Assembly (NCBI RefSeq): GCF_032118995.1
Contig: NC_092665.1
Coordinates: 14,218,012 to 14,282,011, forward strand
Reading direction: 5' to 3'
Length of the DNA: 64,000 nucleotides
Source: Asterias amurensis
Lineage: Eukaryota; Echinodermata; Asteroidea; Forcipulatida; Asteriidae
The stretch's first letter is position 1; every line of letters starts with the position of its first letter. Position numbers and translations under genes: made by a program. The notes under the pieces are model-generated. The model ran no database searches. It was not told the origin of the DNA and was given only the letters and a program-made list of their open reading frames with translations. Below are positions 4,346-64,000 of this stretch, piece by piece.

Positions 4346-5070
4346 ATATTCTAGTTCAACAAAAAAAATAAAAAGACAGAAATTTGCTGTAAAACTTGCT
4401 CATTTAGATCTAAACAAACAAATTAGGAGACTATCTTATAAAAAACACAAGCTCTTTTAAAGCTATAGTCCCACCGAAATGCAAAACAAAAATTATTGCT
4501 CATATGGGTCCTTGCAATTAACTAAACCACTTATTTCTAAGCGCTGCGAGCAAAGCCGGGCAAAATGTATAAAAAAAATTAAAAAAATAAAAAATGCGAA
4601 AAAAAATATTCAAACCCTGAAGTTGGTGCCAGGAGAGAATGATGAGGGCTAGACGAGATCGTGCATGGATGGGGGAAAGACATCAGTGATGCCGTTAGGT
4701 AAGTATGATGGTAAGACAGAAAGGCCTAGAAATAAGACTAACACCTTACTTTCTCAGCAGGAGGTAAAGTATATAACCTGTGACTGGCGTAGTACTTAGT
4801 CTTGATTCAAGATGCTCGTTCTCATTTCCTATGCGGTGACTCGAAACATGCAGTTTCACCTACAGACAGTTACAAAACAAGTCCCTATAAATATATATAA
4901 AATGACATTATACCGTCTTGAACCAAAACTAAGCACTACGCTGTCAACAGTAGAAGCAAAGAACTTGACTAGAAGATGAAGACTCGATGTCCCTGAGTGA
5001 CTGGAGGTCAGCTGGAGGTCAGCAGTTTGGAGCAAAGGTTGAGGCAAAGTATCTCGTAAAAGTATTGGGT

Positions 5071-14500: not shown

Positions 14501-16215
14501 TTTACAAGGCCTTGTGAATTTGTCAAGAAAAAGTTACAATTTTTCTCAAAAATGTTACAAGGCTATCCTTGTGAATTTTTCTCAAAAAAGTTACAAGGCC
14601 TTGTGAATATTTCTCAAAAAATTTACAAGGCCTTGTAAATTTTTCAAGAAAAAGTTACAAGGCTATAGCCTTGTGAATATTTCTCACAAAAGTCACAGTT
14701 GTGAATTTTTCTCAAAAAAGTTACAAGGCTATTGTGAATTTTCCTTTAAAAAGTTACAAGCCTTGTAAATTTTTCTAAAAAAAGCCTTCTCAAAAAAGCC
14801 TCTCTATAGCCTTGTGAATTTTTCTCAAAAAAGGTTTTAAGGCTGTAGTCTTGCGAATTTTTCTCAAAAAAGTTACAAGTCTATAGCCTTGTGAATTTTT
14901 AAAAATAAATTTACAAGGCCTTGTGAATTTTTCACAAAAAAGTTACAAGGCCTTTTAAATTTTCTCAAAAAAGTTACAAGGCTATACAAGGCCTTGTGAT
15001 TTTTTCTCAACAAATTTACAAGGCTATAGCCTTGTGAATTTTTCTCAAAAAGGTTACAAGGCCTTGTGAATTTTTCTCAAAAAAAGTTACAAGGCCTTGT
15101 GAATTTTTTCAAAAAAAGAAACAATGCTATAGCCTTGTGAATTTTCTGAAAAAAAGTTACAAGGCCTTGTGAATTTTTCTCAAAAAAGTTACAGTTGTGA
15201 ATTTTTCTCAAAAAAATTACAAGGCTATAGCCTTGTGAATTTTCCTCAAAAAAGTTACAAGGCCTTGTGAATATTTCTCAAAAAAGTTACAAGGCTATAG
15301 CCTTGTGAATTTTTCTCAAAAAAGTTACAAGGCCTTGTGAATATAGCCTTGTGAATTTTTCTCAAAAAAGTTATAGCCTTGTGAATTTTTCTAAACAAAG
15401 TTACAAGGCTATAGCCTTTTGAATTTTTCTCAAAAAAGTTACAAGGCCTTGTGAATATTTCTCAAAAAATTTACAAGGCCTTGTGAATTTTTCAAGAAAA
15501 AGTTACAAGGCTATAGCCTTGTGAATTTTTCTCACAAAAGTCACAGTTGTGAATTTTCCTTTAAAAAGTTACAAGCCTTGTAAATTTTTCTAAAAAAAGC
15601 CTTCTCAAAAAAGCCTCTCTATAGCCTTGTGAATTTTTCTCACAAAAGTTACAAGGCTATAAGCCTTGTGAATTTTTCTCACAAAAGTTACAAGGCCTTG
15701 TGAATTTTTCTCAAAAAAGTTACAGTTGTGATTTTTTCTCAAAAAGGTTACAAGGCCTTGTGAATATTTCTCAAAAAAGTTATAAGGCTATAGCCTTGAG
15801 AACTTTTCTCAAAAAAGGTTTTAAGGCTGTAGTCTTGTGAATTTTTCTCAACAAAGTTACAAGTCTATAGCCTTGTGAATTTTTAAAAAAAAATTTACAA
15901 GGCTATAGCCTTGTGAATTTTTCACAAAAAAGTTACAAGGCTTATAGCCTTGTGAATTTTTCTCACAAAAGTTACAAGGCCTTTTAAATTTTTCTCAAAA
16001 AAGTTACAAGGCTATACAAGGCCTTGTGAATTTTTCTCAAAAAAAGTTACAAGGCCTTGTGAATTTTTCTCAAAAAAGTTACAAGGCTATAGCCTTGTGA
16101 ATTTTTCTCAAAAAAGTTACAAAGCCTTGTGAATTTTTCTCAAAAAAAATTACAAGGCCTTGTGAATTTTTTCAAAAAAAGAAACAATGCTATAGCCTTG
16201 TGAATTTTTTGGAAA
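11505..16215. repeat. Hairpin satellite, ~32/38 bp units, ~130 copies
   Basis: Each unit contains CCTTGTGAATTTTT, a short CTC spacer and AAAAAAGTTACAAGG, which pair into a stem of about 13 bp. Units are joined either by CTATAG (38-bp period) or directly through AAGGCCTT (32-bp period). A block at 12815-12997 recurs without change in its encoded frame at 13586-13768, giving a 771-bp higher-order repeat, and related blocks start near 14877 and 15865. No gene. Confidence 0.95.
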
Positions 16216-17170: not shown

Positions 17171-17410
17171 GAGCGGAGACAAATCGACTGGACCAGGATT
17201 TGAACCAAGGACATCTGGAATGACAGACCAAGTGATCTACCAACTGAGCTATCAAGCCTTGTGTTTGCCTGTCTCACCACAAGTCAACACCTTTGTTTTT
17301 TAAGGCACCATAATAGTTGCGACCAGGACTTGAACCAACGACCTCCAGATCGACGTGCCGGTGCTCTACCAAAATGAGCTATAAAGCCCTTTGTTGTTAG
17401 TCTCCGTATT
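17170..17410 (-). mobile_element. Two tRNA-derived SINE heads, minus orientation
   Basis: GGATTTGAACC at about 17199 and GGACTTGAACC at about 17328 are reversed B boxes, each followed by CTACCAACTGAGCTAT-type reversed A boxes. They resemble the copies at 30.4, 34.7 and 62.2 kb. Mismatched arms argue against functional tRNAs. Confidence 0.65.
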
Positions 17411-21000: not shown

Positions 21001-24000
21001 CCAGAACAAGCAAACTAAACAAATAAAATAAAAAAATAAAAAAATAAATAAAAAATTATTTAAAATTCACCACTGTCTTACCACTCATCAGCAATTTGTC
21101 TTCAAAGGACGCTCTGAAAGCGCCCTCTGGTTTCCGTAACGCTTTCTTGATCTGGCCACGTATGCCACTGACACTGCGTACCGAAGCACCCTCAAACCTT
21201 GCTACTTCCAAAGGTGTGTTGAACATACCCTGCAGTTACACAAGAAAAAACAAGCGTGACTTAATTCCCTTTAAAGGAACACGTTGCCTTGGATAGGACG
21301 AGTTGGTCTATAAAAAGCAGTTGTAACCGTTTGTTATAAAATGCATATGGTTGGAAAGATGTTTTAAGAGTAGAATACTATGATCCACACAAGTTTGCCT
21401 CGAAAATGCGTGGTTTTCCTTTTGCTTTGCGAACTAACACAGTCAAATTGACTCACATAAATGGCCGACCGTGTTAGTCGACCAGGTAAAAGGAAAACCA
21501 CGCAATTTCAAAGCATATTTGTGTGGATCATTGTATTCTACTTTTAAAACATCTTTCCGACCATATGCATTTTATAACAAAGAGTTATATTTTCAAAGAC
21601 CAACTCGACCGATCCAAGGCAACGTGTTCCTTTAATACACAGTGCTGAATGTTTTACTTATTTTGTTCTTCTTCAGAGTCAAAACATGCCTCAAAAGTGC
21701 ACGGTTTTCATTTTCCTTTTTCTATTCACGGTCGGCCATTTTATTGAGTCAAAAACTCGAGTCCACAAAATGGATAACCGTGCACCTTCGAGGCATGTTT
21801 GTGTGGATCATTATTTTCTACTTTTAAAACATCTTTCTAACCATATCGATATCATGACAAATGGTTTCAAACACTTTTCAACAATCAACTCACCCGATCA
21901 AAGGCAACGTATTCCTTTAAAGACACTGGACACTATTGGTAATTGTCAAAGACTAGCCTTCACAGTTGGTGTATCTCAACATATGCATTAAATAACAAAC
22001 CTGTGAAAATTTGACCTCAATCGGTCATCGAACTTGCGAGATAATAATGAAAGAAAAAATACCCTTGTCACACGAAGTTGTGTGCATTTAGATAGTTGAT
22101 TTCGAGACCTCAAGTTCTAAACTTGAGGTCTCAAAATCAAATTCGTGGAAAATTACTTCTTTCACGAAAACTATGGCACTTCGGAGGGAGCCGTTTCCCA
22201 CAATGTTTTATACCATCAACCTCTCCCCATATACTCGTCACCAAGAAAGGTTTTATGCTAATAATTATTTTGAGTAATTACCAATAGTGTCCACTGCCTT
22301 TAAATTATTTGGGATTGAACAAACAAAAATTGACTAGAGAGGTAATAATGAATACTAACACTTATGAAAGCTGTGTTTTTATGGATCTTTAGTGGAGTCC
22401 CTGTGAGTTTCAACTTCTTGACGACGTTCAGTGATTTGTCCAGATCCAGAATGACTCCCGTCGCCGCGATACGAAATCCCGGCTAGACAAATAATAAAAT
22501 ACAGAACAATGATTTACAAAGAGTCAAACTGTCTGGGTCAGGCGTGATACTTCACAGAGGCATTGAAGGCGATTGGCTCCATGCCCACTGGGCCCAATTT
22601 CATAGAGCTGCTAAGCAAAGAAATTTGCTAAGCATGAAATCTTTGCCTAGATAAAAACAGGATTACCAACCAAATTTCCACATGATTTTTAGGATAAGCA
22701 AACATCAGCTGAATACAATGTACCTGTAACAAGCAATATGCAACAAATGGAAATTTGGTTGGTAATCCTGTTTTTATCAAGAAAGAAATTTTTGTGCTAA
22801 GCAACTCTATGAAATTGGGCACTGGTCATTGCCTTGGTGCCCTTGAAATGCTACATTATACATGTATATTTATAATTTCCTCAAAGGGTGCCATTTACAG
22901 AGGAGAAAATGCCTTGGTGCCCTTGCTTTTGTTAAATCGAATGGCATGATGGGTACAATTTCATCAATTGTGCAAACGGCTCAAACTGTGCAGTTGAAGG
23001 GTTTAAACTTTAACTAGAAATTATTGCCAAGAGTAAATATATATAATAAATTTTTTTTACATTTTTTTTAGTTTTTGTTTCTAATACTGATTGATGCAGA
23101 AATATCAGGCATCAAAATCTTAAAACTTTTACAATAAATTCTCTCCAAAAGAAGTTTTAAACAGGAAACAAAATTCTTACATTTCTTCCAGCCACCGACT
23201 GCACAGCCAACACTCCCGTGCCTTGTGGGGTAATCGGCCCTGAGGGTGCAAACAAATAAAAAAGAGAGTTAGATTATTTGTATTCTTTTACCTTAAAGGC
23301 AGTAGACACTATTGGTAATTACTCAAAATAATTATTAGCATAAAACCTTACTTGGTAACGAGTAATAGGGATAGGTTAATAGTATAAAACATTGTGAGAA
23401 ACGGCTACCTCTGAAGGGACGTAGTTTTCAAGAAAGAAGTAATTTTCCGCAAATTGGATTTCGAGACCTCAGATTTAGAAATTGAGGTATCGAAATCAAG
23501 CATCTAAAAGCACACAACTTCAAGTGACAAGGTGGTTTTTTTTCTTTCATTATTATCTCGCAACTTCGACGACCAATTGAGCTCAATTTGTAATTTAATA
23601 TGTTGAGATACACTAATTGAGAAGACTGGTCTTTGACAATTACCAATATTGTCCAGGGTCTTTAACATACACAAAAATTGTTTCTAAAGTTTTGACAATC
23701 TGTAAATAAGTTAATAATGTAAAGACGCTTTACCCCAAATGCAGGCCGTGCAATGCAGATGCTCAGGAGTGTACTTGAGTAGTCTGGTCCTCATGTTATG
23801 GTCTTGCATACAATACAGAGGGATGGTCTGGAAACGGCGCCACCCCACGGAAAAGATGAGAGGATCCCTCGTCTTGAGGATGCGGCTGTGCCATCTGTGC
23901 TTCTTAAGTCTCATCTAGGGAGAGAGAACATGTTGGATGACCAATAATAATGATTATCAGTTTTTATACAGTTCTTTGCGTCTAAAAGCGCTTCCTGGTC

Positions 24001-27000: not shown

Positions 27001-30000
27001 TGGTGGAAAGTTGACTCTTTCTCTAAAACTACATTACTTCAAAGGGGGTGTCGCTTCCAGTACTCTTTACCAAGTAAGCCTTTATGGAAATTAATTTTGG
27101 GAGTAAATTACCAAAGGTGTGCACCCCCTATATATTTGGTTTGCTGAACACCCTGTGTGTATCTACTTGCTGGGTAGATAATATTATATTTAGAACTGGC
27201 TTGCTTCATATTCTCCTACCGCAGAGTAGATTTTCAGAACTTTGGTAAACTTCCCAGTTCTGAAAAGAACTATCCTGCTTTTGAACTACTACCTGGGCGA
27301 AAGGTAAAAAATCAGCCAGACTTTTGCTTTAGTGGATCGAAGAGACTTCTTGTTATTAACTTCACTATCGCAGAGCGAGTTCTTAATTGGTCTCAACATT
27401 TCGACTAGCTCCCTCTAGTTATCATCAGGGGACAGTACACTCTCTTTAAGAAAATTTGTAAATTTAAAAAAAAAAGTTTAAGAAAAGAGGACGTATTCCT
27501 CAAGATTCAAACCTCGTCTAAGGTCCAGTCTCGGACTTGCTCCACTGGGAAGCTGGTACAATCTCGGCTGTTCATCTCTCGTCTCCTCGTGCTCTTTGAT
27601 TCCTTCTCAGGTTTGGTGATCTTAAAGAGACCTCCTACGTCTTCATCTTCATCTTCTTCCTCCTCAGCGTCATATTGGCTTGCTCCTTAAGGAAGGAAAA
27701 AAAGGGGACAAAATTAAGTGGAGTTAATTCTGTCTGTATTGAGCTGCTTCTGTATTGAGCTGTATTGAGCTGCATTTTTATAGAGCTGCTTAGTGGCCGA
27801 TTTGTGCTTACTGTGCAATTTCCATTTCATAGTGCTGCTAACCATAAGCACACGTAAAGGCGTGCTAACCTTCCGGTTCTTACAACACGAAAATAAATGA
27901 CGTCACAATGCAAATCAATGGTGAACGTGCAGTATAGCCGCCAAATTTGTCTGCTACAGTAAGCATGAAAATGTGCTTACCGTTAAGCAGCGCTATGAAA
28001 TTGGGCCAAGGTATTGGCGATTTAGTATTCACTTTCTTACAAAGACAAAGGACAAAGCAGAAACGCAAAAACAAAGTCTCCATAGGGGAATTCATACAGT
28101 TCCTATCCTGGTACCTGTTACCCATTACCCAGTACCCATTACCCATTACCCATTACCCAGTACCCATTACCCAGTACCCAGTACCCATTACCCATTGACC
28201 AGTACCCATTACCCGGTGCCCAGTACCCATTACCCATTACCCATTACCCATTACCCATAACCCATTACCCAGTACCCATTACCCATCACCCAGTACCCAT
28301 CACCCAGTACCCAGTACCCATTACCCAGTACCCAGTACCCAGTACCCAGTACCCATTACCCAGTACCCATTACCCATTACCCATTACCCATTACCCATTA
28401 CCCATAACCCATTACCCAGTACCCATTACCCATTACCCATTACCCAGTACCCATTACCCAGTACCCAGTACCCAGTACCCATTACCCATTACCCATTACC
28501 CATTACCCATTACCCAGTACCCATTACCCATCACCCATCACCCATCACCCATTACCCAGTACCCAGTACCCAGTACCCAGTATCCAGTACCCAGTACCCA
28601 GTACCCATTACCCAGTGCTAGTTTCAGTGGTTGAGAGAATCACATTAAACAGAGACGAGGTTATAAAAGGTTGTCAAACGGTTAAAGGTTGGCAAACCTA
28701 CCACTGCCGTAGACGAGTTTCCGGAGGTTGGGTGTGCTGTTCTGCTGCTTCAGAAAGGATAGGGACGCTTTCTGTAACAGGTTGTCCTTCCACTTTAAGT
28801 GACCTACACAAAGTCAATAAAAATATACATGATATTCACATGGTGAAAAATTACAACAATTAAGTACAAGTACAAGGGATGACTTCTGTATAAGTTGGAA
28901 AATATTTATTATATTAAGTACAAGTGCTAACCTCCATACATGCACATGGTACATGAAGAGGATTTGACAGCCCTTTTTAAAGACCATTTAGTAACATTTA
29001 TACAGCCAAAAGGATTCTGAAATCATGTTAAAATAGGAAGATAATATGCCTTATAAAAATCAAGTCACATTACTCAAGAAAGTGAAAATTGTGAAAAATT
29101 TAAACTGTCCATGCTTAAGCAGCTCTGCTTAGCAGAAAAATTATGAAGCCTTTAAAAGCAGCTCTACAACATTGGATCAACAAAATGATACTCATTTTTT
29201 ACTGTGTCTCGTAAATTGTAAGTCTACATAAATTTACCTGAACCAAAGGTTGAGTCGTCACCAAAGTTTTCACCATCTTCATCATCATCTGAATCTGCCT
29301 CCTCCTCTTCATCTTCATCTTCATCTTCATCTTCTTCGTCTCCTGCATCACTATCATCTTCCTCCTCTTCTTGCTCACTGAACTCCCCTCCAAAATCGTC
29401 CTCCTTCAGCTTCGGCTGATCGAATTTCTCAGCAGCTTGATCTCCGAGAAGATTCTCATTCCGTTTCTTTTTAGTCCTCTCTCCCTTCGTGCTGGATTCA
29501 ATACCATTTTTAACATTGCTCCCGCCGCTAGTTCTAAAAGTTACTTCGAGGTCCGAGTCTAAATCTTCACCGTTGTCTGTTTCACCTTCATCAGCTTGAA
29601 TGTCATCGCTGTCTCCATCCTCCATGGATACATCACTATCCTCATCCTCATCCTCTTCACTTTCCTCCTCACTCATGCCTCGTATCTTCTGCTTGCTTGT
29701 CATCTTCTTTTGTGATGAGATGCTCTTATCTGTTTTGCTGCTGGATGACGATTTCTTCCTCGGCGATGATCGAGGAAATTCTAACTCGTCGTCGCTGTCG
29801 GCGAAGGCAACGTCATCCAAGTCCTACAAGGACGAATTGCAAAAAATAACACTACACCATCACAACATGTTGACACCATTTCTAACTTAACCCCCTTACT
29901 GTTTGATCATTCGATATTTGGTTTGATTGGCGGCATATTGCACCACAGTACCTTGTGAACCATTACATGGTGCTATGTAAAAGGAATAGGTCTCCTAATT

Positions 30001-41900: not shown

Positions 41901-44900
41901 TGTGGTTCCCACCGCACCCGTTAGACCTGACGTGACGTCTACGGTAGAACCACAACAACAGACGAAAGCACCAGCCGGCCAGTCGGAGCTGGTCACTCTT
42001 CAGCCGAGGGCAGAGGTCGTCGGGGTGACCGAGGGGGTGGCCAGAGTGGAGAGACAAATCCCTAAGGCTGTGGTCAAACCTCAGGTGCTGACCCATGTCA
42101 TTGACGGTTTCATCATTGAAGAGTCTAAAGAACCGTTCTCGGTGAGTTTCTTGATAAAAGTTAAACAAAATTGCTGAGATTTTTCCCTTTTTTTTTTTTT
42201 AGAGATCCTGCCCTCAGAACACCTATAACATTTACAATTATGTTGAGTAGGCGTTCAATTACAACCTATATAATCTAAAACTAACCTCATTTCAACACAC
42301 AATATCATGAAGTCAGTGCAAAAACATTGTATCTCTGTTTCACGCGAGTTTGTAAACCGTTCTCGGTGAGTTTCTTGATAAAAGTACATTTTTATTGCTC
42401 AGATTTTCTCCTTTTCTTTTACAAGAGATCCTGCCCTCAGAAAACCTACAACGTTTTCATGTAAATTGAATTTGCAAACAACTAAAACGAACCCCATTTC
42501 AACACACAATATCATCATGTCAGTGCAAAAACATTGTATCTTTTCAATAGCAGGTATGTTTCACGCGAGTTTGTAAATGTCAAAACGACGAATCGCATAA
42601 AAAGTGTCTTTACAGGGTCTTGTTTATATGGCCCTAGAAATATATCACATCAGCATTTGGCATAGACTTGCGTCCGTGGTCGCCTCATCCTGAAATTGTA
42701 ATTGGGGCGCACTCCTTGAGTCGCCGCCATCACCTGGTATCTTTCAATTGCTGAAAACAAAAACTCTTCAAAGTAACTTGCAGCAACACTCACAATTTGT
42801 CTTCATTGGTAACAAACAAATTAAGAGCAAGTACATGTTCAACAAACCATGATCCCCTCCTCTGCATCGCTATTATAAAAGCAGATAAATTTTGTCCAGC
42901 GTTTTTATCCCGCTCCGCAGCTCTTCATCAAATGCTGTATCCGATCTACACTTCCAAGGGTTGACAATTTTCTTTTAAAAATGTATATGAATGTCGGACC
43001 TCATTCCCATTTTTCTACATTTATGTGGACAACAACAATCGAAAGATTCCAAAAACCAAGGGTATGTTTTGCCTTTAAACCTTCAATGAGGGAGTTTAGT
43101 GTCAATCGGATACGGCAATTTTGCTATGAAACCATTTTGTGTCTAATTGAATAGTCGATCTGTTTATTAATTTACAATCAGAACTGGAAACAGACAGGAG
43201 CTTGCGCCAACCTGCCTGCTTCAAGAGTGAGACGATCTTTCAATCATTCGTTTTTAAACTTTTTAGTTTTTCGTAGAATGATGTATGTTTTAATTTTGCT
43301 TCCATCCCTGCCTGCCTTGCTCTATGTTTCCAATTTATGAATGTCAGTGAGTAGACTTTTGAGATTAGAGCTCAAAAATACCTGCTGGCCAGAGTCCAGT
43401 CATTTAAGCACTGGGCTAGTAACACAAAACAAACTAAACGAATCCTGCCGTCTTAAGTTTTCCAAACACATACTAGAGTTTTCTAGAGTTTCAATTCAAG
43501 ACATACATTTAAACAAAATATAACAAAAAGATGTTTTCAAGGATTTGCAAAATATTTTTGGTCCGTCCAGTGGAGATTTGTTTGAAGTTCAAGATCTTGA
43601 GGTGGCAACTAGCCCAATTGGGGTACATACCCATTTGGAACCTGATTATCCCAATGGAGGTGGTAATGATCCCCAATCGGGTAAACATTTGCATGGCAAC
43701 GACACTAGTCGGTATACCCAACAGTTTAAACCAAAAGTGTTCTCTTTGGCACCTCCGAGTGTCTCTCTGAGCTTGGAATGCCTAGTATGTGTTTTCTTTA
43801 TTTTTGGTTGCATTTTATTTCTGTATGTTTTTCTTCTTCTTTTTGCACACTGCATTTTCTTTTGATCTCGCATGCCTGTATGATTGAAGAAGTATCACTT
43901 ATTTATTTACGTGTACTTTCAAAACGTAGTTTGAAGCTCGTCGTGACGCTGTCTTAATTGTTTGATAAGGAATTCGCCAAGACTTTTGATCATGTTTGTT
44001 TTTAAATCTGAACAGAGAAAACCCGGAGAGAAAAATTGTCTGTGTGACACAAGTAGTTTCTTTATATAGCAAATCTTCACTTCATAAAGCACAACATTGG
44101 TTACATTCAGAACAGACTTTTTCAGTCTCAAATGAAAAGCTCACTGATTATGAAGTCGGTGATATTTTAACCTTTGACTGTTGAGGATGATAAGAATTAG
44201 AAGTAACTATTACAAGTAAGTCGGTACATAATAGCTGCGTAACCTGGGGGGGGGGGACTCCCAATTAGGGCTAAACAGTTCAGGAAAATGTTTGCACGGC
44301 AAGAAGATAATTCTTTTCCCGGTATCAAAAATTAGTGTCCTGGAAGAAATTTTCAGGGCCTTTCCTGTTTGATCATTTCCATCGTAATCATAGTCATTGT
44401 ATGCAGTCGTTAATGAATGCAATGGTTGTAGTGAGTCAACCTGTTCCAATCCAAGGCTCTTATCTTAGGTGGAAACAAAATCCCTCTTCTTTGATTTCTA
44501 AATGAGAAAACGGGGAGGGGGGGGGGAATCCTTCTTTTCCCAAAAATTGATGAGAATCTGATTTTGATTTTTTAACTAAGCCTAAAAGAAGTAATTTTAA
44601 ATACTAGATTGGAACTTTTGCAGATACAACCATGCATAAGATCTCTTTTGAGGGAGTTTTGGCTCTGAAAAGAGCCGGTGTGGTCTCGACGTTTCAAACA
44701 GTATACTCTGCTCATCTTGAGCCTAAAAGAATGATGTGTGTTTACTTACAGATCGGCCCATCCTCACTGTGGTCCGATGAGTACCCTCAACTAGACCCAA
44801 GGCTACAGCAGTCTCAGATGAGCTCAAGGAGAGACGATGGACGACAACAAGATGGAATGCAGTCGCTTAAACGATCAGGTACTCAAACACAAAGTACCCA

Positions 44901-47010
44901 TAACTCAAAGGGGAATCTCAAAAATAAAAAAAAGTGGGGATTTTCTTGTTGGATTGGTTTAAGGAACACGTTGCCTTGGTAGGATTTGAAACTTTGCATG
45001 GTGGAGATAAGATATAGAAGAGTTTGCGGTAACACCATGTAATAACAATCTCTAAATGAGTTGGGGTGGTTCTGAAAAGAACCGTTGGGTTAACTCGACG
45101 TTTCGATCAGTATGCTCTGATCGTCTTCTGGAGAATGCTGGACTCTGATGCTGCATGCTGCTTAAGTACGAAGAACGGCGGCTGCGGACTGGATCTTGGA
45201 GGCGGAGTCCGTGTGGCATCACGTTGCCTTGGATCGGACAAGTTGGTCTTTTTGTGTTTGTAACCGTTTGCTATAAAAAGCATATGGTTAGAAAGATGTT
45301 TTGAAAGTAGAATACAATGATCCACACAAGTTTGCCTCGAAATTGCGTGGTTTTCCTTTTACTTTGCGAAATAACACGGTCGGCCATATAAATGGCCGAC
45401 CGTGTTAGGAGGCGGCAAGCGTCATGGCCTGGACCCGAACCAACTCTCTGACACTGAACATCAGAGCTTGAGTCCAGTACTCGACCACTTGTCGACGATA
45501 CTCGATAACTGACAAAAATATGTTTACCTTCATTGTTCAAAACCTCACATGCTAATAATTTTCCCCCGATAATGATTTTTGCCATCATAGCGCCTGACAA
45601 CCAAGAGATGTCCGATGGCATGCCGCTCCGCTGCGAGTTCTGTGGCAAAGTAGACCGCCCTCACAAGTTCAAACGCTCCAAGAGGTTCTGCTCGCTGGCT
45701 TGCAGCAAGCGCTACAACGTGGGCTGCAGCAAGAGACTCGGGCTGTTCGCACCACAACGGGAGAACCACGAGAGGATTAAGCATAAGATGAAACTACAAG
45801 TGAAGGCAAAACCACTCAAAGGCTCCAGAGGGAAGCACGGACGTCTCAGCTTCAATGTCGACAGACCGTGGGTAAGACTTCTACAGACAGTAGACCAGAG
45901 CTTGATTTCACAAAGAAATAAAAAATCATCGTCAGACAAATTGTCAGTATCACCATAATGATTTGCTTTACTAAGCAACTACGATTGATTTGCAGTATCG
46001 AACAATCTTAGCTCTTTGTGAAATCGGCCCCAGGACCCCATTTCACAAAGCCTGCTAGCACAAAAACTGCTAAGCACAGAAAAGTATTGCTTGCCAGAAA
46101 CAGGTTAACAGCCAAAATAACATTAGGTTTACATTGTTGTGACTTGTGCCCTACTCAATTTTTGCTTAGCAAAGAAATTTTGTCAAGCAGAATTTGTTGT
46201 TTATAAACATGAAAGTGTGAAACTCAAACCCATAATTTTGTGACAAAGCTTCAAGTGCAAACTAGTATGCGCCAGTATCAATTGGTACTAACAGATACAA
46301 ACCAGTATAAACCGATATGAACCGTTGGAGCATATCTAATAAGAAAATAGAATTAGCTGTTGCTACTGCCTACCAACCAAACAGACATGCTGGTATAAAT
46401 GCAACAAATAGTTAGTGAAAGCCTCTGCTGGGGGCGAAACGTTAGGCCATTAACTATTTTTTGGAGCATCTAGTTCAGGTGTATTATTTGACAACGATTA
46501 TTTTTCTTGCAGTGTACTGGTCAGTCATTCGGCCACTTTCCACAAGGCGAAAGGATGTACAGTCAAGACCAGCAGCAGCAGGGAAGCTCCTCAATGTCCA
46601 CTACATCTGCCGCCATGTCCAATCCCACCGCTGCCACCAACCAAGATAGGGAAAGCAACAGCAGCAGCGCTGGACCGTCAGAGGAATCCTCATCCCTGGA
46701 GTCGTCCATGACTTTCTCCCCGTCTCCCAACAGCGAAGTGGACGAGACTCCACCGGTTTCGGACGATGCCTTCGATGATCCGGCCGGTCCTGAAGGAGAT
46801 CCGGCCAAGTGGTCGGTCCAAGACGTCTACGATTTCATCCACACACTACCAGGCTGCTCGGATTACGCCGACGAGTTCTTGAGGCAGGAGATCGATGGTC
46901 AGGCCTTGATGCTTCTCAAGGAGGACCACTTGATGACAGCAATGAACATGAAACTCGGTCCAGCTCTAAAAATTATCAGCCGAATTTACTCACTGAAAGA
47001 GAAAATATAA
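38959..47010 (+). CDS. PHC: Polyhomeotic-like Polycomb protein (PHC), 6 coding exons
   Basis: Subunit of canonical PRC1; its SAM domain polymerises and helps compact Polycomb chromatin. Coding exons: 38959-39084, 40181-40316, 40805-42141, 44752-44878, 45591-45871, 46513-47010; joined they keep frame for about 834 aa. The first exon has an in-frame ATG behind an acceptor at 38909. Residues 1-500 are low-complexity Pro/Ser/Thr/Gln-rich. About 510-533 is homology domain 1 (VLTHVIDGF...EEPF-like). The FCS zinc finger has Cys 590, 593, 609 and 613 (CEFCGK...RFCSLAC). The SAM domain is 764-834 and ends the protein. Compared with vertebrate PHC1 it is shorter at the N-terminus and lacks long poly-Gln. 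The end of coding exon 1 is the least certain border; a donor at 39066 would also keep frame. A further upstream coding exon cannot be excluded. Confidence 0.95.
39493..40035 (+). mobile_element. Stem-loop repeat family copy, split by a SINE
   Basis: Left part: CAGCATTCTTCTGAAGACAA with CTGAAGA at 39509-39515. Right part from about 39895: GAACATTGAGTCGTTAACC, a decayed stem-loop at 39920-39934, then ACCATGCAAAGTTTTAAATC. The order matches the minus-strand copy at 45 kb. The SINE at 39537-39897 sits between the two parts. Confidence 0.7.
39537..39897 (+). mobile_element. Complete tRNA-Ser-derived SINE
   Basis: The head GTGTCGTGGCCGAGTGGATA contains a tRNA-Ser-type A box, GTGGGTTCGAATCTCGGTCG the B box. 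The body has CCCAGGGGTAAATGGGTACC and the tail ends CTGGCTATT(ATT)n. This is the best copy of the family in the window and lies in the first PHC intron. Confidence 0.9.
44604..44745 (-). mobile_element. Stem-loop repeat copy with perfect histone-type hairpin
   Basis: On the minus strand: GAGCAGAGTATACTGTTTG, GAAACGTCGAGACCACACC, then GGCTCTTTTCAGAGCC (44661-44676), a perfect match to the metazoan histone mRNA 3' stem-loop, and ACTCCCTCAAAAGAGAT. It lies about 75 bases before PHC exon 44752-44878. Confidence 0.75.
44957..45412 (-). mobile_element. Stem-loop repeat inserted in a TTGCCTTGGAT MITE
   Basis: ACGTTGCCTTGG occurs at about 44967 and again at about 45220, where the MITE continues to its GGCCGACC core. 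Between them, minus strand: CGATCAG-AGCATA-CTGATCG stem (45104-45123), AAACGTCGAG, and GGTTCTTTTCAGAACC (45068-45083). Confidence 0.7.
46025..46200. mobile_element. GGGCCCAA-family MITE, partial
   Basis: CCCCATTTCACAAAGCCTGC and TTGCTTAGCAAAGAAATTTT fit the arms of the family, strongly diverged; the right end is missing. Confidence 0.45.
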
Positions 47011-50290: not shown

Positions 50291-50742
50291 GTGACAGCTA
50301 TACAGCTCTCCGTTGCTCGCCAATTAAGTAATTATATTATGAATAGGGTTCCAGTGCCTTCAAGTGATGGGATAGAACTGAAGAGCGGGGGCAAACGCAA
50401 GGCAAACACAATTAAAATTGTCAGCAATTTCGGTTACTTAGGGAACCTTGTCCATGAGACGCAATGGAACCAATCAGAAAGCCGGCCGAGTGCCGATAAA
50501 AAGGCACTGCCATCACAGAATGATGCAGAGACGTACGCCAAGTGCCGAGCCCAGCTAGTTTGGTAACTCACAAATGGCGATATAGTGTTGACAACACACC
50601 AACATTGTTAAATTCTTTACAAAATTATTTTGAACCAAAGTGGACAGAGAGCATCTTGCCCCCAGTTCCTAAACGAGGTCTTATAGAGCGCACAAATCCA
50701 CAAAAGTGCTCAGGGCGCTATTACAGTTCTTTAACTAACGAC

Positions 50743-51816
50743 ATGGATCTGCAACCAGTTTTCAGGGACAACTCAACAAGTAACTGTACAAGCAACTGTA
50801 CCACTACAACAGGCGTAGTGGATGACGTGACCTACGTACTATACTATATCGGCCTGTTCTGTAATTTGCCTAGCTGTCTAGCATACATCGCAACGTTGAT
50901 CCTCATTTTGAAGCACCGTTGCCTCCACGACGCATCAAACTTTTTTCTTGCAAACCTTCAAGTTGCTGGGATCCTCTTCAATATTGCTGTCCTCATCTTC
51001 TGCTTGTTTTCTCGCACCTCTTCGGAGGACATTGCACCCCTGACAATCACCGGGCTGACTGGTGTGCTTCAGCTGACGATTGGTGGCTTTTGCTTCAGCT
51101 CCGTGGTCGTTGGTGCCGACAGGTTTTATAAAATCTCCAGACCAATGCGTTACATGCAATTTGTCACAAATAAACTTAGTGTGTACATCATTATCGGGTT
51201 GTGGAGTGTTCTTATCATTCTTGTTTTCGTGTGGCAAGTCGGGGCATTTGCCACGGTGGGATTCCAGTTTCCCTCAGATGATGAATTGAAAACCGAGGTG
51301 GCCCTGAATTACAGGTCCTTGATGATTTTCATTGACGCCGTGGCTATCCCTTGCTTGGTTATAAAGACTTGTTTATGTGTTGGCTTGGTGCGAATCGCCA
51401 GAGCCCATAAGAGGAGAATCCAGGATGAACAACTGGCCCTGGCAGTCGTCTGCAGTCGCAGCAGAGAATGTGAACCTTCGACCAGCAACTCGTCACCCAA
51501 AACGCAGCAGAAAGATACCGCGGGTCCGAAACTTAAGCCATGTCAAAACGCAAACAAAGAGACAAACTATTTCGTGACGTATGTCACTCTCTTCGTATTG
51601 TGTTGGTTCTCGTTTATTGCACTGAACAACATCGGTGCATTTACCCGCGCTGACGTCTCCGTTGAAGCCTTCTTTACTCAGATCAGTAGCCAGTCTTTGG
51701 CTCCACTTACTCAAGTATTTTTTGGGACGATGTTTTTGACATACTCACAGTCTGAACACAGAAAAGTTCTTGGTGAGATTCTGCGCTCTTTTCGGGCGAA
51801 ATTCAAATGCTTTTAG
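50743..51816 (+). CDS. Divergent rhodopsin-like G protein-coupled receptor, intronless
   Basis: A single-exon reading frame that encodes 357 aa from the ATG at 50743. The same frame opens upstream at 50542, but the extra 67 residues look like untranslated sequence; the later start gives a typical extracellular tail with three N-glycosylation sequons (N10, N14, N18). Seven hydrophobic segments follow in class A order. TM1 has an Asn in GLFCNLPSC. TM3 ends in ADRFYKI in place of DRY. TM5 carries Pro in VAIPCL. TM6 has VLCWFSF in place of CWxP. TM7 has LAPLTQVFF in place of NPxxY. A basic third intracellular loop contains a Ser/Asn-rich insert, and the tail is short and basic. Ligand and subfamily are not recognisable; such intronless, lineage-specific receptors are common in echinoderms. 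Confidence 0.9.
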   Translation: MDLQPVFRDNSTSNCTSNCTTTTGVVDDVTYVLYYIGLFCNLPSCLAYIATLILILKHRCLHDASNFFLANLQVAGILFNIAVLIFCLFSRTSSEDIAPLTITGLTGVLQLTIGGFCFSSVVVGADRFYKISRPMRYMQFVTNKLSVYIIIGLWSVLIILVFVWQVGAFATVGFQFPSDDELKTEVALNYRSLMIFIDAVAIPCLVIKTCLCVGLVRIARAHKRRIQDEQLALAVVCSRSRECEPSTSNSSPKTQQKDTAGPKLKPCQNANKETNYFVTYVTLFVLCWFSFIALNNIGAFTRADVSVEAFFTQISSQSLAPLTQVFFGTMFLTYSQSEHRKVLGEILRSFRAKFKCF

Positions 51817-55500: not shown

Positions 55501-57615
55501 AAAGAAAGCACCTATTAAAACAATTTTTTTACATTGTGCTTGTTTCACTAGTTCACCGAGTCGATTTTATATCACTTGTTGGTCCCGCCCTTCACTTTGA
55601 CCAGACCTCCTCTGAGGTGTTTATTAGTGTGCCTTTTTGTATACGTCTGTGTGTTCATTATTTGATTTTTGTGTGATTTCTTTCACAGGTACGTGCTGTT
55701 AAAGGAAAAAAATATGTTACTGACGCTGGAGGCTGAGGCTTTGAGGCAAGACCGGTTCATGCCAGGGGAAGAAAGATTAGAAAAGGTTAGGCCACTGGTT
55801 CATGCCAGGGGAAGAAAGATTAGAAAAGGTTAGGCCACTGGTTCATGCCAGGGGAAGAAAGATTAGAAAAGGTTAGGCCACTGGTTCATGCCAGGGGAAG
55901 AAAGATTAGAAAAGGTTAGGCCACTGGTTCATGCCAGGGGAAGAAAGATTAGAAAAGGTTAGGTCACTGGTTCATGCCAGGGGAAGAAAGATTAGAAAAG
56001 GTTAGGCCACTGTTGTTGTTGTTGTTGTTGATATTCCATGTTCTTAATGAAAATACAGTGAGGACACTATTCAACTTAAACAAGTGACGTTAACTGTATC
56101 TTTCTTGATGGTTTTACTTAAATATCAGCATTACGATGACAAAAACTAATCTAAGACTCTTCTTTTAAGATATCTGCTCTAGATTGCAGAGGTCAGGGGT
56201 TCGAACACCACCCAAGTAGTTTGCCTGTGGAATTTGTTTCTGCATGGCTCTTTGGACTCCGAGTATACAGTACTTAGGAAGAAATTTTAAATAAATAGTA
56301 AACTTGCTGGTACAACCATGTGTAAATCTCTTCTGTGGGAGTGTTGGCACCGGCTCTTTTCAGAGCCTTCACTCCCACAAAAGAGATTTACACATGGTCG
56401 TATCTGCAAGTTTACGATTTATTTGTAGTTTCTTTCTATTTATCCACACCATGGAATAAAATAATTGTAGCCCACACCTTGAAGTGGCCTTCAGGCCTTG
56501 TGTGTCTGGCGACTTGCATAAAAAAAATTAACAAAAAAAATAAAAAAATGCAAAGCTTTAAACAATACTTATACTGTACTTATCACACATAATTGTGTAT
56601 TATGGTTGATTGGTGAGAGAAAAAAACTTTTTTTTTTGGCAAAGGTGGAAAAGTCCATGAGTAACATACAGCAGGTGATCAGAGAAAGGAACGAGGCACT
56701 GACTGAGCTGAAGACGGGACACAAAGACGAACACCCCGGCAAGATGGTGTACACACCGTTCGGATATAGGCGTTACCTGAAACCACGGGAGCACTATGTT
56801 CCATCTTATCTCAACAAACATGTGAGTAATTGTAACCCCGCTTTATTTATTTATTTATTTCTTGTTTATCCTGGGAAATCCATTCAGTAAGAAAAACTCA
56901 CTGATCTCCCATGGATCCCAGCTTATAACAATCTACAGAAGTGAACTTAAGATAAAATATTAAAAATTTACGCAGAAAAACATTGCACATTCATTTAAAA
57001 CTTTACGTTTTGGGTGCTGGATATGTGGCATGGTGTAACCCCCCCCCAAAAAAAAAATACGTATTGATGTTGTTCTTGGAATGGCTGCCCCACCCCTCTC
57101 TCCTTTTGCGTCTCATTCTGTTCTGGGAATCTCGGGGGGGGGGGGGGGGGGGGGTGGGGGGGAAGTTCTTTGCTTAATACGTTAAAGTATTGCTTTGTTA
57201 AGCAGGCTTTGATGAAAGCCCCTGTAGATGTAGTTATATTGCAACAAAGCCGCTTTACAAATTGACCACATAATCTGAGTGACGACATAATAGGGCTTTT
57301 CGCAGATCTTTCCGAAAATCTTCTCTTCAAAATTAACTCAATTTCCTTGTTGGTGGAAACATTTTAAGTTAATTTCAGCAAGGATTACGTTTTTGTTGTT
57401 TTCGTTCAAGTAGGTCTTTAAATGTGTCTATGTATTTTTCTTTTACCCAGTATCAGCGGAAGCGTTACGTCTACGCGCCGTACGTGCGGAAAATAATGGG
57501 AAAATGGATGGAACAGGAGCAAGACAACAGGAAGAAGGAAAATAGGCGACGTCATAATACCGAAAGGAAACTCAAGAAGAGATTCCCGAACGCGGATGTG
57601 TGGCAAAATGATTGA
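52510..57615 (+). CDS. MRPL47: Mitochondrial ribosomal protein L47 (uL29m), 6 exons
   Basis: Structural protein of the large mitoribosomal subunit near the exit tunnel. Exons: 52510-52572 (presumed first exon; starts M-F-A-S-F-K, likely part of a mitochondrial presequence), 54198-54367, 55182-55242, 55689-55785, 56645-56821, 57451-57615. Family signatures are clear: GLEEFFDDPKNYGEP in exon 2, LHKLWYVLLKEKNMLLTLE across exons 3-4, and a basic C-terminus (YQRKRYVYAPYV...). Exons 2-6 are in frame with each other. Exon 1 with its best donor (AAG|GTAATG) is out of phase with exon 2; a weaker donor 11 bases downstream would fix this and give 247 aa, close to the family length, or a small exon is missed. 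Exon 4 ends inside a six-copy minisatellite. Exon 5 uses an AAAG acceptor after a poly-T run. Confidence 0.94.
52793..53659. mobile_element. 841-bp near-perfect palindrome with 13-bp direct flanks
   Basis: Arms of about 420 bp mirror each other around about 53226, from CTCCTAGAACTATTTCGG to its inverse. TAGGTCACTACTA flanks both ends (52793-52805, 53647-53659). The two near-identical 91-codon frames inside are a product of the symmetry. Lies between MRPL47 exons 1 and 2. Confidence 0.9.
53810..53832. repeat. Poly-T/poly-G tract
   Basis: A run of T followed by about 12 G. Nothing else is seen in the 53660-54190 intron stretch. Confidence 0.7.
54836..54960. mobile_element. Diverged SINE-like fragment in MRPL47 intron
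   Basis: (AAT)n then TCTTATATAGCGCACATATC and GTACTCAAGGCGCTTA, a text of the same general type as SINE tails elsewhere here. The surrounding 54430-54850 repeats AAGCTAATCGAACGCACCC in inverted form, suggesting another foldback element. Confidence 0.5.
55754..56011 (+). repeat. 43-bp minisatellite, six copies, starting inside MRPL47 exon 4
   Basis: Six 43-bp units begin at 55754, 55797, 55840, 55883, 55926 and 55969; five are identical and the fifth differs by one base (GGTCACT for GGCCACT). Each unit contains the exon-4 end and its donor GAAAAG|GTTAGG. Confidence 0.97.
56285..56432. mobile_element. Palindromic element centred on a histone-type stem-loop
   Basis: AAATCTCTTCTGTGGGAGTG and CACTCCCACAAAAGAGATTT are mirrored, with TTACACATGG outside, and GGCTCTTTTCAGAGCC (56352-56367) sits at the centre. 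The outer parts match the 25.7- and 44.6-kb members of the family. Lies in MRPL47 intron 4. Confidence 0.75.
57133..57164 (+). repeat. Poly-G tract
   Basis: About 20 G, then T and seven G, in the last MRPL47 intron. A G-quadruplex is possible; length may be unreliable. Confidence 0.8.
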
Positions 57616-62000: not shown

Positions 62001-64000
62001 CTTCACAACAGGACAACATAAAATGTGACTACTACTGATGTGGATATTTTGGACATGATAAAAATAACATCAATCACTTCGGGGCAATGACAAAAAAACA
62101 GATCTCAACCACCCTTCATTCACCTTCTTTTGTTTCGAACAAATTCAGACATCGATCTGAAACATAAATCAATAAATCAAGTAATAAAACCACATGGGAA
62201 ACTGACTGGGTAAAGTTCAATTTGAGAACAAAGACAAATTGACAAGAGCGGGATTTGAACCTGTGGGCTCCGAATTAACAGGCCAGCATTCTACCAACTG
62301 AGCTATTTAGCCCTGGGCCCAATTTCATAGAGCTGCTAAGCACAAAAATTTGCTAAGCATGAAATTTCTACCCAGATAAAAACTGGATTACCAACCAAAT
62401 ATCCATTTGTTGCATAGTGCTTGTTACTGGTATTCAGCTTAATTGTTTGCTTATCCTGAAAATCACATGGAAAGTTGGTTGGTAAACTTGTTTTTATCAA
62501 GGAAGAAATTTCATGCTAAGCAAACTTTTGTGCTTAGCAGCTCTATGAAATTGGGCCCTGATGTTTGCAATCTCCCTATTTTGCCAATTATCATTTTTAG
62601 TGCCTGTCAGAAGCCATTCAGCCAGTAACTGCGGTGTAGCCAGGGATCACAGCTAAGTTTGGAAAGCAGCAGGAGAGGGGTCACCCTAAGGGGATGCAAT
62701 TATTCCCACTTTTTTCAAAGTTCAACCCGAAATTAATTATATTTTATTGTCAGTTTCCCTTCCCTGTGGTTTATTACTTCAAAATTTTGTATTTGAATTT
62801 TTATTTGAAACTTTTTATTTGAAATAAAAAGTCAATCCCCTAGTAATCCCGCTCCTGTTGCAGCTCGAAGGTTCAAAACCTGCTCTACTCAATGTTTTCT
62901 TTGTTCAACTCAAAAATATATTACCAAAATCAAGTCAATAATGACCTTCATTACTTTCCAGATTTCATGGTTCTACTTACTGCCGAATTCTGCGCATATA
63001 GTCAGCCTTCTCTACTTACTGTGCAAGCACTGAATTTTTGCGCTAGCTGTGTAAGCGAAGTATGCCTAGGCCAGGGGCCAATTCAATAGAGCTGCTTAAG
63101 CAAAAAAAATGCTTAAGCACGAAAATAGCTCGCTTATTTTACACATGTTACTGGCCAAAATTTCATGCCATATACATTGCTTATGACTAGTATTTAGCTG
63201 TTGTTTACTTAGCATTACAATTGAGTGGAGTCTTGGCCGGTAATCTGATTTTACTAAGCAATGAATTTATTGCTTAATCAAAATTTTGTGCTTAAGCAGC
63301 TCTATGAAATTTGGCCCTGTTTGCACGCTCACAAGCAAAAATTGCCTGCTAACCCAACAAATACGCATGACATACAGTAAGCAGTCTTCCCTGCTTCTGT
63401 AATAGCAATTCTTTGCTTATGGTAAGCAGAGCCATAAAATTGGGCCTAAATCATAGCTTGGCAAAACTAAAAAATTAATTTAATGAATTGCAAATTGATG
63501 CAGAGGTGATGGATCCAAGATGACTGGACTAATGAAAAAAAGAAAGAAATCAGCCACAAACAATGATTAATTAAAATTCCGATTCAAAAGGTCAAATTGT
63601 AAGACCCTTGTACCGCAACCAAACGGCTAATCTTCAAAACTTAATCTTGAAAATCTTAATCTTAATCTTTATCTTAATCAAAATCTTACTCAAAATCTGA
63701 ATCATAATCTTAATCTTAATCTTAATCATAATCTTAATCTTAATTGTAATCAGAATCTTAATCTTAATCAAAATCCTAATCTAAATGCAAATCTTAATCT
63801 TAATCTTCAAAATCTTACCTGGATAGAAATGAAGAAGTCCTAGAGTCGATCCGACTCTCAGCTCCTTGAGCGTCGTCCTTGACGAGATGTTTGTACTTTG
63901 GGTTTGCCGCTAGCCAATCCAGCAACGTCTCAAGCGCTTGGTTCTGAAGCGACTCGTTTGTGTAACTCACAGCGAGACTCATAAGCGCCGTCAGGTTATC
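59057..64000 (-). CDS. PEX5: PEX5 peroxisomal PTS1 receptor, 3' part, cut by window end
   Basis: Cytosolic TPR receptor that binds C-terminal SKL-type signals and delivers cargo to the peroxisome. Exons seen (minus strand, 5' to 3'): 63819 to beyond 64000, 62124-62156, 61163-61328, 59886-60043, 59057-59267 (stop TGA at 59057). All phases match; 63819-64000 begins in frame at the edge. The visible part covers the second half of the TPR domain and the C-terminal helices: [56 protein letters not shown], then [13 protein letters not shown] and [10 protein letters not shown]. These match the PTS1-binding repeats of PEX5. The 33-base micro-exon encodes [10 protein letters not shown] in the inter-TPR stretch. 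The protein ends FGVTPVVT. The N-terminal WxxxF/Y docking region lies outside the window. PEX5 is convergent with MRPL47. Confidence 0.96.
60860..61130 (+). mobile_element. Non-LTR retrotransposon ORF2 C-terminal fragment
   Basis: One frame reads [20 protein letters not shown] then [13 protein letters not shown], a clear example of the WNSLP...NLDxFK motif at the C-terminus of many LINE proteins. Only about 75 codons remain, in a PEX5 intron. Confidence 0.75.
62190..62310 (-). mobile_element. tRNA-derived SINE head, minus orientation
   Basis: GCGGGATTTGAACCTGTGGG and TTCTACCAACTGAGCTATTT are the reversed B and A boxes; the same body resumes at 62560-62740, so the MITE at 62315-62558 was inserted into this SINE. 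Confidence 0.8.
62315..62558. mobile_element. Foldback MITE, GGGCCCAA family, inserted in a SINE
   Basis: GGGCCCAATTTCATAGAGCT and its inverse at the right; internal arms ACTGGATTACCAACCAAAT and TTGGTTGGTAAACTTG pair. Both flanks are SINE sequence. Confidence 0.9.
63075..63319. mobile_element. Foldback MITE, GGGCCCAA family
   Basis: AATTCAATAGAGCTGCTTAAGC and GCTTAAGCAGCTCTATGAAA are mirrored. A further half copy follows at 63330-63450. Confidence 0.8.
63635..63812. repeat. (AATCTT)n microsatellite
   Basis: About 170 bases of AATCTTAATCTT with AATCAA and AATCAT variants, ending at the donor of the PEX5 exon at 63819; the last repeat AATCTTAC supplies the donor bases. Confidence 0.9.

Follow-up and report, generated by a model that had tools for sequence, protein, structure and literature searches.

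Histone-type stem-loops and a putative U7-complementary element in the pseudo-LTRs of a Penelope-like element of Asterias amurensis

Two neighboring repeat copies on the minus strand of a 64,000-nucleotide stretch of the Asterias amurensis genome (NCBI RefSeq assembly GCF_032118995.1, contig NC_092665.1, positions 14,218,012 to 14,282,011 of the forward strand; hereafter the window, numbered from its first letter) carry a hairpin of the type found at the 3′ ends of histone mRNAs. The repeat is the pseudo-long terminal repeat (pLTR) of a Penelope-like element (PLE). In animals, the textbook case of an mRNA ending in a stem-loop and not in poly(A) is that of the replication-dependent histones. 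On balance, with modest confidence, we favor the reading that the pLTR of this PLE acquired or evolved a histone pre-mRNA 3′-processing cassette consisting of SLBP-type flanks, the stem-loop, and a U7-complementary element. As judged from sequence, the likeness of the PLE to histone ends covers both the hairpin and the histone downstream element (HDE). The histone reading is stronger than when it was first put forward because AGAGAT lies downstream of the hairpin and because the whole arrangement sits just before the next tandem ORF (open reading frame).

As a sequence-only reading of this DNA had proposed, the two copies (copy 1, 45133-45048; copy 2, 44721-44641, both on the minus strand) have their parts in the same order: first a hammerhead-like hairpin whose end is GAAACGTCGAG; then, past a short spacer rich in A and C, a histone-type hairpin of 16 nt; and AGAGAT 14 nt further on. 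In copy 1, which belongs to family A, these are the hairpin CTCCAGAAGACGATCAGAGCATACTGATCGAAACGTCGAG (45094..45133) with GAAACGTCGAG at 45104-45094, the stem-loop GGTTCTTTTCAGAACC (45068..45083), and the HDE-like AGAGAT (45048..45053), whose 14-nt distance from the stem-loop equals the spacing in host histone genes. Copy 2, from family B, has a decayed hammerhead-like hairpin CTCAAGATGAGCAGAGTATACTGTTTGAAACGTCGAG (44685..44721) with GAAACGTCGAG at 44695-44685, the stem-loop GGCTCTTTTCAGAGCC (44661..44676), and the HDE-like AAAAGAGAT (44641..44649), which is a complement of AUCUCUUUU in the U7 candidate described below. The stem CGATCAG/CTGATCG, attributed by the sequence-only reading to both copies, is perfect in copy 1; copy 2 has TGAGCAG/CTGTTTG. 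A third stem-loop GGCTCTTTTCAGAGCC forms the center of a fold-back copy on the plus strand (56352..56367, with AAAAGAGAT at 56379-56387), and a family C copy on the minus strand combines a hammerhead-like CCTGATGATAACTAGAGGGAGCTAGTCGAAATGTTGAG (27392..27429) with the hairpin AGTTCTTTTCAGAACT (27256..27271). Allowing two mismatches, the 16-mer pattern occurs four times in the window versus 0.50 expected, a number reached in none of 100 shuffles. Judged on the window alone, the GAAACGTCGAG half is not striking (two occurrences with at most one mismatch versus 0.34 expected, matched by 5 of 100 shuffles). Beyond its cassette, copy 1 shows the short end CTTCTATAT (45020-45012) and then a 33-nt tail (together 44979..45020) that holds the PLE ORF start codon (ATG, 44999-44997) and the initial seven codons; 13-nt direct repeats CCAAGGCAACGTG flank it on both sides (45232-45220 and 44979-44967, spanning 44967..45232), consistent with a target-site duplication. 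The same 13-mer is found four times in the window (21280-21292 and, also on the minus strand, 44967-44979 and 45220-45232; 21614-21626 on the plus strand; expected 0.00) and is evidently also part of some other repeat.

The identification of the 16-mers as histone stem-loops, made at the outset from the consensus, is borne out both by Rfam and by a model of the host's own histone genes. Rfam Histone3 (RF00032), whose gathering threshold is 34 bits, placed copy 1 above it (35.6 bits) and copy 2 below it (29.8 bits). A search with PF00125 for host histone genes gave 104 matches, with the main cluster on contig C9, and the histone hairpin was present in 18 of 21 stretches fetched (17 distinct); L074 was too short, L103 had an interrupted hairpin, and L105 lay on the wrong side of its gene. 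The consensus of these host 3′ ends is AAAACCAACC-GGCTCTTTTCAGAGCC-ACCACAT...TTCAAAAAAGAGAT, so that host genes share the PLE hairpin, have similar flanks, and add a downstream AAAGAGAT element; the stem-loop of copy 2 is identical to that of most of the histone genes fetched. A covariance model (R1) built from the 17 host ends, without any PLE sequence, and run over 19 sources gave 40.9 bits for copy 2 (E 1.6e-7), 33.3 for the 56-kb copy, 30.5 for copy 1 (E 7.4e-5), and 45.0 for the PLE locus L085; the best window match outside the family scored 21.8 bits (E 0.012). The C9 cluster itself (17751303-17919226) has a repeat of ~5.4 kb and includes, besides the interrupted hairpin of L103, an H2A-side stretch (L071) with the damaged hairpin GGCTCTTACGGAGCC.

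Three PLE families (A, B, and D) retain AGAGAT. Among 114 PLE copies picked by their exact stem-loop, a choice that makes the stem-loop invariance in alignment A2 (42 copies displayed) a selection effect, AGAGAT lay within 40 nt past the stem-loop in 81 and at 13-14 nt in 67, versus 23 occurrences in 1,211 control windows, each 46 nt long. Where copies were not chosen by stem-loop, AGAGAT or AAAAGAG was found within 75 nt of the core in 14/14 of family A and 26/36 of family B. A candidate for the host U7 RNA (C17:15185960-15186016) reads AUCUCUUUU-GAAUUUCUCAAG and continues into a GGGC...GCCC hairpin; a second copy lies 6 kb off, its flanks diverged, and the RNA and an upstream stretch that by eye resembles a proximal sequence element are common to both. 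Support for this candidate comes from the two-copy comparison and from pairing with histone HDEs, an initial pattern search for U7 having been dropped when it returned 48 matches versus 120 in its control. The 5′ part of the candidate pairs with host HDEs at a mean of -12.3 kcal/mol (shuffles -4.9) and with positions SL+5..+32 of two classes of PLE copies at means of -9.3 and -10.0 kcal/mol (shuffles -4.4 and -4.6), whereas three control regions taken from these copies gave means of -3.6, -6.6, and -5.2 versus shuffled values of -3.5, -5.2, and -5.8, the region at -60..-33 being slightly lower than its shuffles (-6.6 versus -5.2); these pooled shuffles preserve single letters only. For single flanks, with shuffles that preserve dinucleotides, five of seven from families A, B, and D gave p ≤0.014, and a family C flank gave p 0.41. 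We read the PLE downstream element as a putative HDE complementary to U7 at matched spacing, the U7 candidate being below the Rfam cut-off. The genome also encodes an SLBP RNA-binding domain, split into two pieces at C8:20134205-20134764 that score 58.1 (above cut-off) and 42.8 bits.

That these copies belong to a repeat family, as had been claimed, is confirmed by thousands of exact sites in the genome (491.5 Mb in 23 contigs; counts are exact matches, with decayed copies excluded). The 16-mer GGYYCTTTTCAGRRCC occurs at 4,756 sites versus 1 for the reversed pattern, and GAAACGTCGAG followed after 5-25 nt by the 16-mer at 1,515 sites versus 0. The upstream halves CTCCAGAAGACGATCAG (family A) and CTCCTGAAGAYGAKCAG (families B and D) have 1,340 and 1,100 exact sites, with none for either reversed control. 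Genome counts so far above the reversed-pattern controls reject a chance origin of the pattern. Identity with a short interspersed nuclear element was likewise rejected, the tRNA-like matches in the window (17185-17258 and 62240-62312) being located elsewhere.

The proposed link to PLEs, in which hammerhead motifs had already been reported (parts of PMC7761336 and PMC6155905), held: longer copies extend on their upstream side into a Penelope-like ORF. An open frame of 612 aa within locus L046 matches RVT_1 at 40.7 bits (cut-off 29.6), and the longest open frames listed reach 898 aa. GIY-YIG (PF01541) matched a 319-aa frame of L028 at 20.5 bits (E 5.9e-4), under the cut-off of 22.6, and was not listed for L046 at E 0.01. 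An endonuclease scan that scored 150 of 647 candidates supplied 30 loci chosen by protein and not by hairpin, with 36 endonuclease matches, some places being counted twice where loci partly overlap; an exact stem-loop lay downstream of 30 of the 36, in 28 cases at +340 to +344 nt. Of the six matches lacking it, two had just 86 nt of downstream sequence, and L065 had an additional T in its loop region. At the tandem locus L049, the stem-loop begins 84 nt upstream of the ATG of a 358-aa frame. Inserts stop either at ...TATAT or, 33 nt later, at ...ATGCAAAGTTTCAAATCCTAC, after the first seven codons of the ORF; a crude sorting of the 114 copies gave 28 short, 19 long, and 67 unsorted ends, about 10 of the 28 showing a mutated long tail. 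Opposed endonuclease matches lie near each other on C3, C10, C13, C15, and C20, so that tandem units, a pLTR across the ORF start, an optional tail, and inverted partners are all seen. In PAc, an element of Anolis, reverse transcription is described as beginning at internal sites near the ORF start, with both DNA strands cut and extended (parts of PMC11167929), and the opposed copies here fit that mode of cutting and extension. Separately, L081-L083, L086, and contigs C6, C8, C13, and C14 hold many endonuclease matches at 47-50% identity, often in 428-aa frames and several kb apart; these array-like PLE relatives have hairpins such as AGCTCTTTCCAGAGCC.

Comparison of the families indicates which parts of the pLTR were kept. 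When L046 of family A is compared with three family B loci, identity is 49-51% in the 3′ untranslated region in front and 79-90% in the hammerhead-like module; two of the three stem-loop comparisons stand at 88%. The two stem-loop differences between A and B make up one compensated pair. The sequence-only reading had taken a compensated C-G to U-A change between the copies as a sign that the stem was kept; such a change is indeed seen between the families, and it amounts essentially to a single A/B split. Alignment A3, whose rows were not selected for the stem-loop and which omits one of 15 family A references as well as L173, L182, and the family C copies L194 and L204, has 92.6% of cells pairing versus 26-40% in slid controls. 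Its two-sided changes (27 cells) fall in two pairs, one per hairpin, and mostly reflect the A/B split; the covariation score beats 500/500 shuffles, whereas neither the count of pairs changed on both sides nor that of pair types does.

The hammerhead part of the original claim fared less well, its CUGANGA box being present in a sister family. Neither window copy has the CUGANGA box (CAGAAGA in copy 1, AAGATGA in copy 2), and family A has the core CAGAAGA, with A at U4, in 14/14 copies; family B has CTGANGA in 23/36 copies, together with GAAAC and GUC. A covariance match to a hammerhead, which had been suggested as a check, was not obtained with the Rfam hammerhead families in 44300-45500 or 10 loci (E ≤10), nor in 20 loci (E ≤1). 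In alignments of copies read by eye, one extra base separates the CUGANGA box from stem II, and in the predicted fold this base pairs with the G expected to be G12. PLE hammerheads have been described as minimal, without helix III, and perhaps active as dimers (sections of PMC7761336 and PMC6155905), and the hammerhead of PAc as cleaving only when its protein is added (PMC11167929, in part). The module likely descends from a PLE hammerhead. The hammerhead-like hairpin is retained as a structure; in family A its core is altered and probably slow or inactive, and self-cleavage there seems unlikely.

We infer from sequence how cleavage, SLBP binding, cell-cycle expression, and a split between mRNA and template might come about. 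The cassette lies past the end of one PLE unit and ahead of the ATG that opens the next in tandem, where the host U7/SLBP machinery could cut tandem-unit transcripts a few nucleotides past the stem-loop. Because the cassette follows one ORF and precedes the next, such a cut would leave the upstream ORF on a non-polyadenylated, SLBP-bound mRNA that ends as histone mRNAs do and would be expressed as they are in replicating cells. The same histone-type cut would remove the downstream start region, and uncut read-through RNA, which would retain the downstream start-codon region, could serve as the template for reverse transcription. Since a template must keep the start region that cleavage removes, the two fates would be mutually exclusive, suggesting a switch between mRNA and template. 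Copy 1 contradicts the earlier idea that the hairpin defines where the RNA of a new copy ends: it extends ~51 nt beyond the predicted histone cleavage point when measured to its short end, and 84 nt when measured to its long end. With inserts reaching TATAT or the seventh codon of the ORF, the stem-loop was rejected as the end of the retrotransposed RNA; inserts that pass the predicted cleavage point imply that the RNA reverse-transcribed was not cut there. We put forward only tentatively, as possible and rather doubtful, the wider proposal that a PLE lineage came under the histone mRNA machinery, such that U7/SLBP replaces the hammerhead in resolving tandem transcripts, or competes with it, producing S-phase-coupled tail-less mRNAs with uncut read-through as template, and that the core change in family A marks the hand-over.

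Several observations weigh against a processing cassette. In 40 copies anchored on the hammerhead and not selected otherwise (L166-L205), the exact 16-mer was present in 7, with 0/20 on C1, a count biased downward because places with a known stem-loop were excluded there, and 7/20 on C2, where a few palindromic places were passed over. The stem-loop of L088 is just 70% identical to that of L046, the HDE stretch just 60% identical between families A and B, and the compensated pair, as noted, essentially one A/B split. In family C the hairpin lacks both histone flanks and AGAGAT, and the family's window copy reaches only 11.2 bits with R1; L085 has lost AGAGAT. The two best matches to the Rfam U7 model (RF00066), one of them the U7 candidate, tie at 26.4 bits, under the cut-off of 34, and the model gives comparable matches in 12 of 14 prokaryote controls. 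Two of the seven single PLE flanks showed no significant U7 pairing (p 0.126 and 0.096), and the reach of inserts past the predicted cleavage point belongs here as well.

Some of these observations would suit a hairpin that is the element's own structural signal, for example one bound by a PLE protein near the starts of reverse transcription, with the histone likeness arising by convergence. In all inserts examined reverse transcription begins downstream of the hairpin, which places the hairpin in the template; PAc is reported to need RNA around its pLTR-ORF junction (PMC11167929, in part); and family C retains the loop and inner stem without the HDE. However, the match to host histone genes takes in flanks, loop, stem, and AGAGAT spacing alike, and U7 pairing is limited to the right place, and we consider convergence on such a signal unlikely, if a serious contender. 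A likeness to host histone ends that reaches beyond the hairpin is also what one would see if a histone 3′ end had been captured once by a PLE and copied since as a passenger with no present role. PLEs can capture host DNA between pLTRs (according to parts of PMC3846280), and single copies decay, exact 16-mers being left in 7/20 unselected copies on C2. Set against such a passenger are the stem, which a compensated pair preserves between families ~50% identical in their 3′ untranslated regions, and the AGAGAT retained in families A, B, and D, so we regard it as improbable.

The model of the sequence-only reading, in which hammerhead self-cleavage and SLBP binding together form a new kind of RNA end, draws on the CTGANGA, GAAAC, and GUC of family B and on the cleavage reported for the PAc hammerhead when protein is supplied (PMC11167929, in part). 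The missing Rfam match, the extra base before stem II, and the core changed in every family A copy speak against it, and cleavage at GUC would put the stem-loop on the downstream RNA and not at the 3′ end of the upstream mRNA; we think it very improbable. The histone-processing cassette remains the reading we favor.

Compared with the 3′ ends of replication-dependent histone mRNAs (RF00032), the PLE cassette shares GGYYCTTTTCAGRRCC, a CCAA-type 5′ flank, an ACC/AAC 3′ flank, and AGAGAT ~13-14 nt downstream that pairs with the U7 candidate; unlike them, it sits in a retrotransposon between two ORFs, its processing is predicted from sequence, and one C-G pair of the stem is U-A in families A and D. 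Minimal type I hammerheads of PLEs were reportedly described by Cervera and de la Pena in 2014 and by Lunse et al. in 2017. Family B resembles these in having CUGANGA, stem II, GAAAC, and GUC without a helix III loop, and the modules here differ from them in the extra base before stem II, the CAGAAGA of family A, and the lack of an Rfam hammerhead match. The carrier resembles Poseidon PAc of Anolis (PMC11167929) and Penelope of Adineta vaga (PMC3846280), as far as parts of those papers describe them, in its reverse transcriptase ORF, putative GIY-YIG-like end, tandem units, pLTR running into the first codons, optional ~33-nt tail, inverted partners, and hammerhead-like motif near the pLTR-ORF junction. 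It is unlike both in that the pLTR here adds a histone-type stem-loop and HDE and that the hammerhead core is altered; "histone" as a word is absent from the main text of either paper. Searching the open PMC literature by title and abstract, we found no paper on a histone stem-loop in a retrotransposon, although an earlier mention in Lunse et al. 2017 or Cervera and de la Pena 2014 is possible. The carrier is thus a known kind of element, and a full histone 3′-processing cassette in a PLE appears to be new. If the histone reading is correct, a mobile element with a whole cassette could tie its expression to S phase, and the genome would contain potential SLBP sites by the thousand, which might interfere by competition with the processing of histone mRNAs. 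It would also offer a testable role for the tandem organization and hammerhead motifs of PLEs, which a review terms a mystery (PMC7761336, in part).

Other features of the window were noted alongside. At 45372-45407 (C18:14263383-14263418), TAACACGGTCGGCCAT and ATGGCCGACCGTGTTA form a perfect inverted repeat of 16 bp around a loop of 4 nt; these arms, with loops of 2-8 nt, recur at 29 genome sites (control 0), like a very small dispersed palindromic element. A long array of a degenerate 38-nt unit in ~127 copies occupies 11539-16209, and a 43-nt unit repeated six times at 99% matching (55754-56012) stands shortly ahead of the fold-back PLE copy. On the plus strand, a 430-aa open frame at 50524-51816 may encode a seven-helix receptor, and frames at 45509-45958 and 46492-47010 may correspond to parts of a polyhomeotic-like protein.

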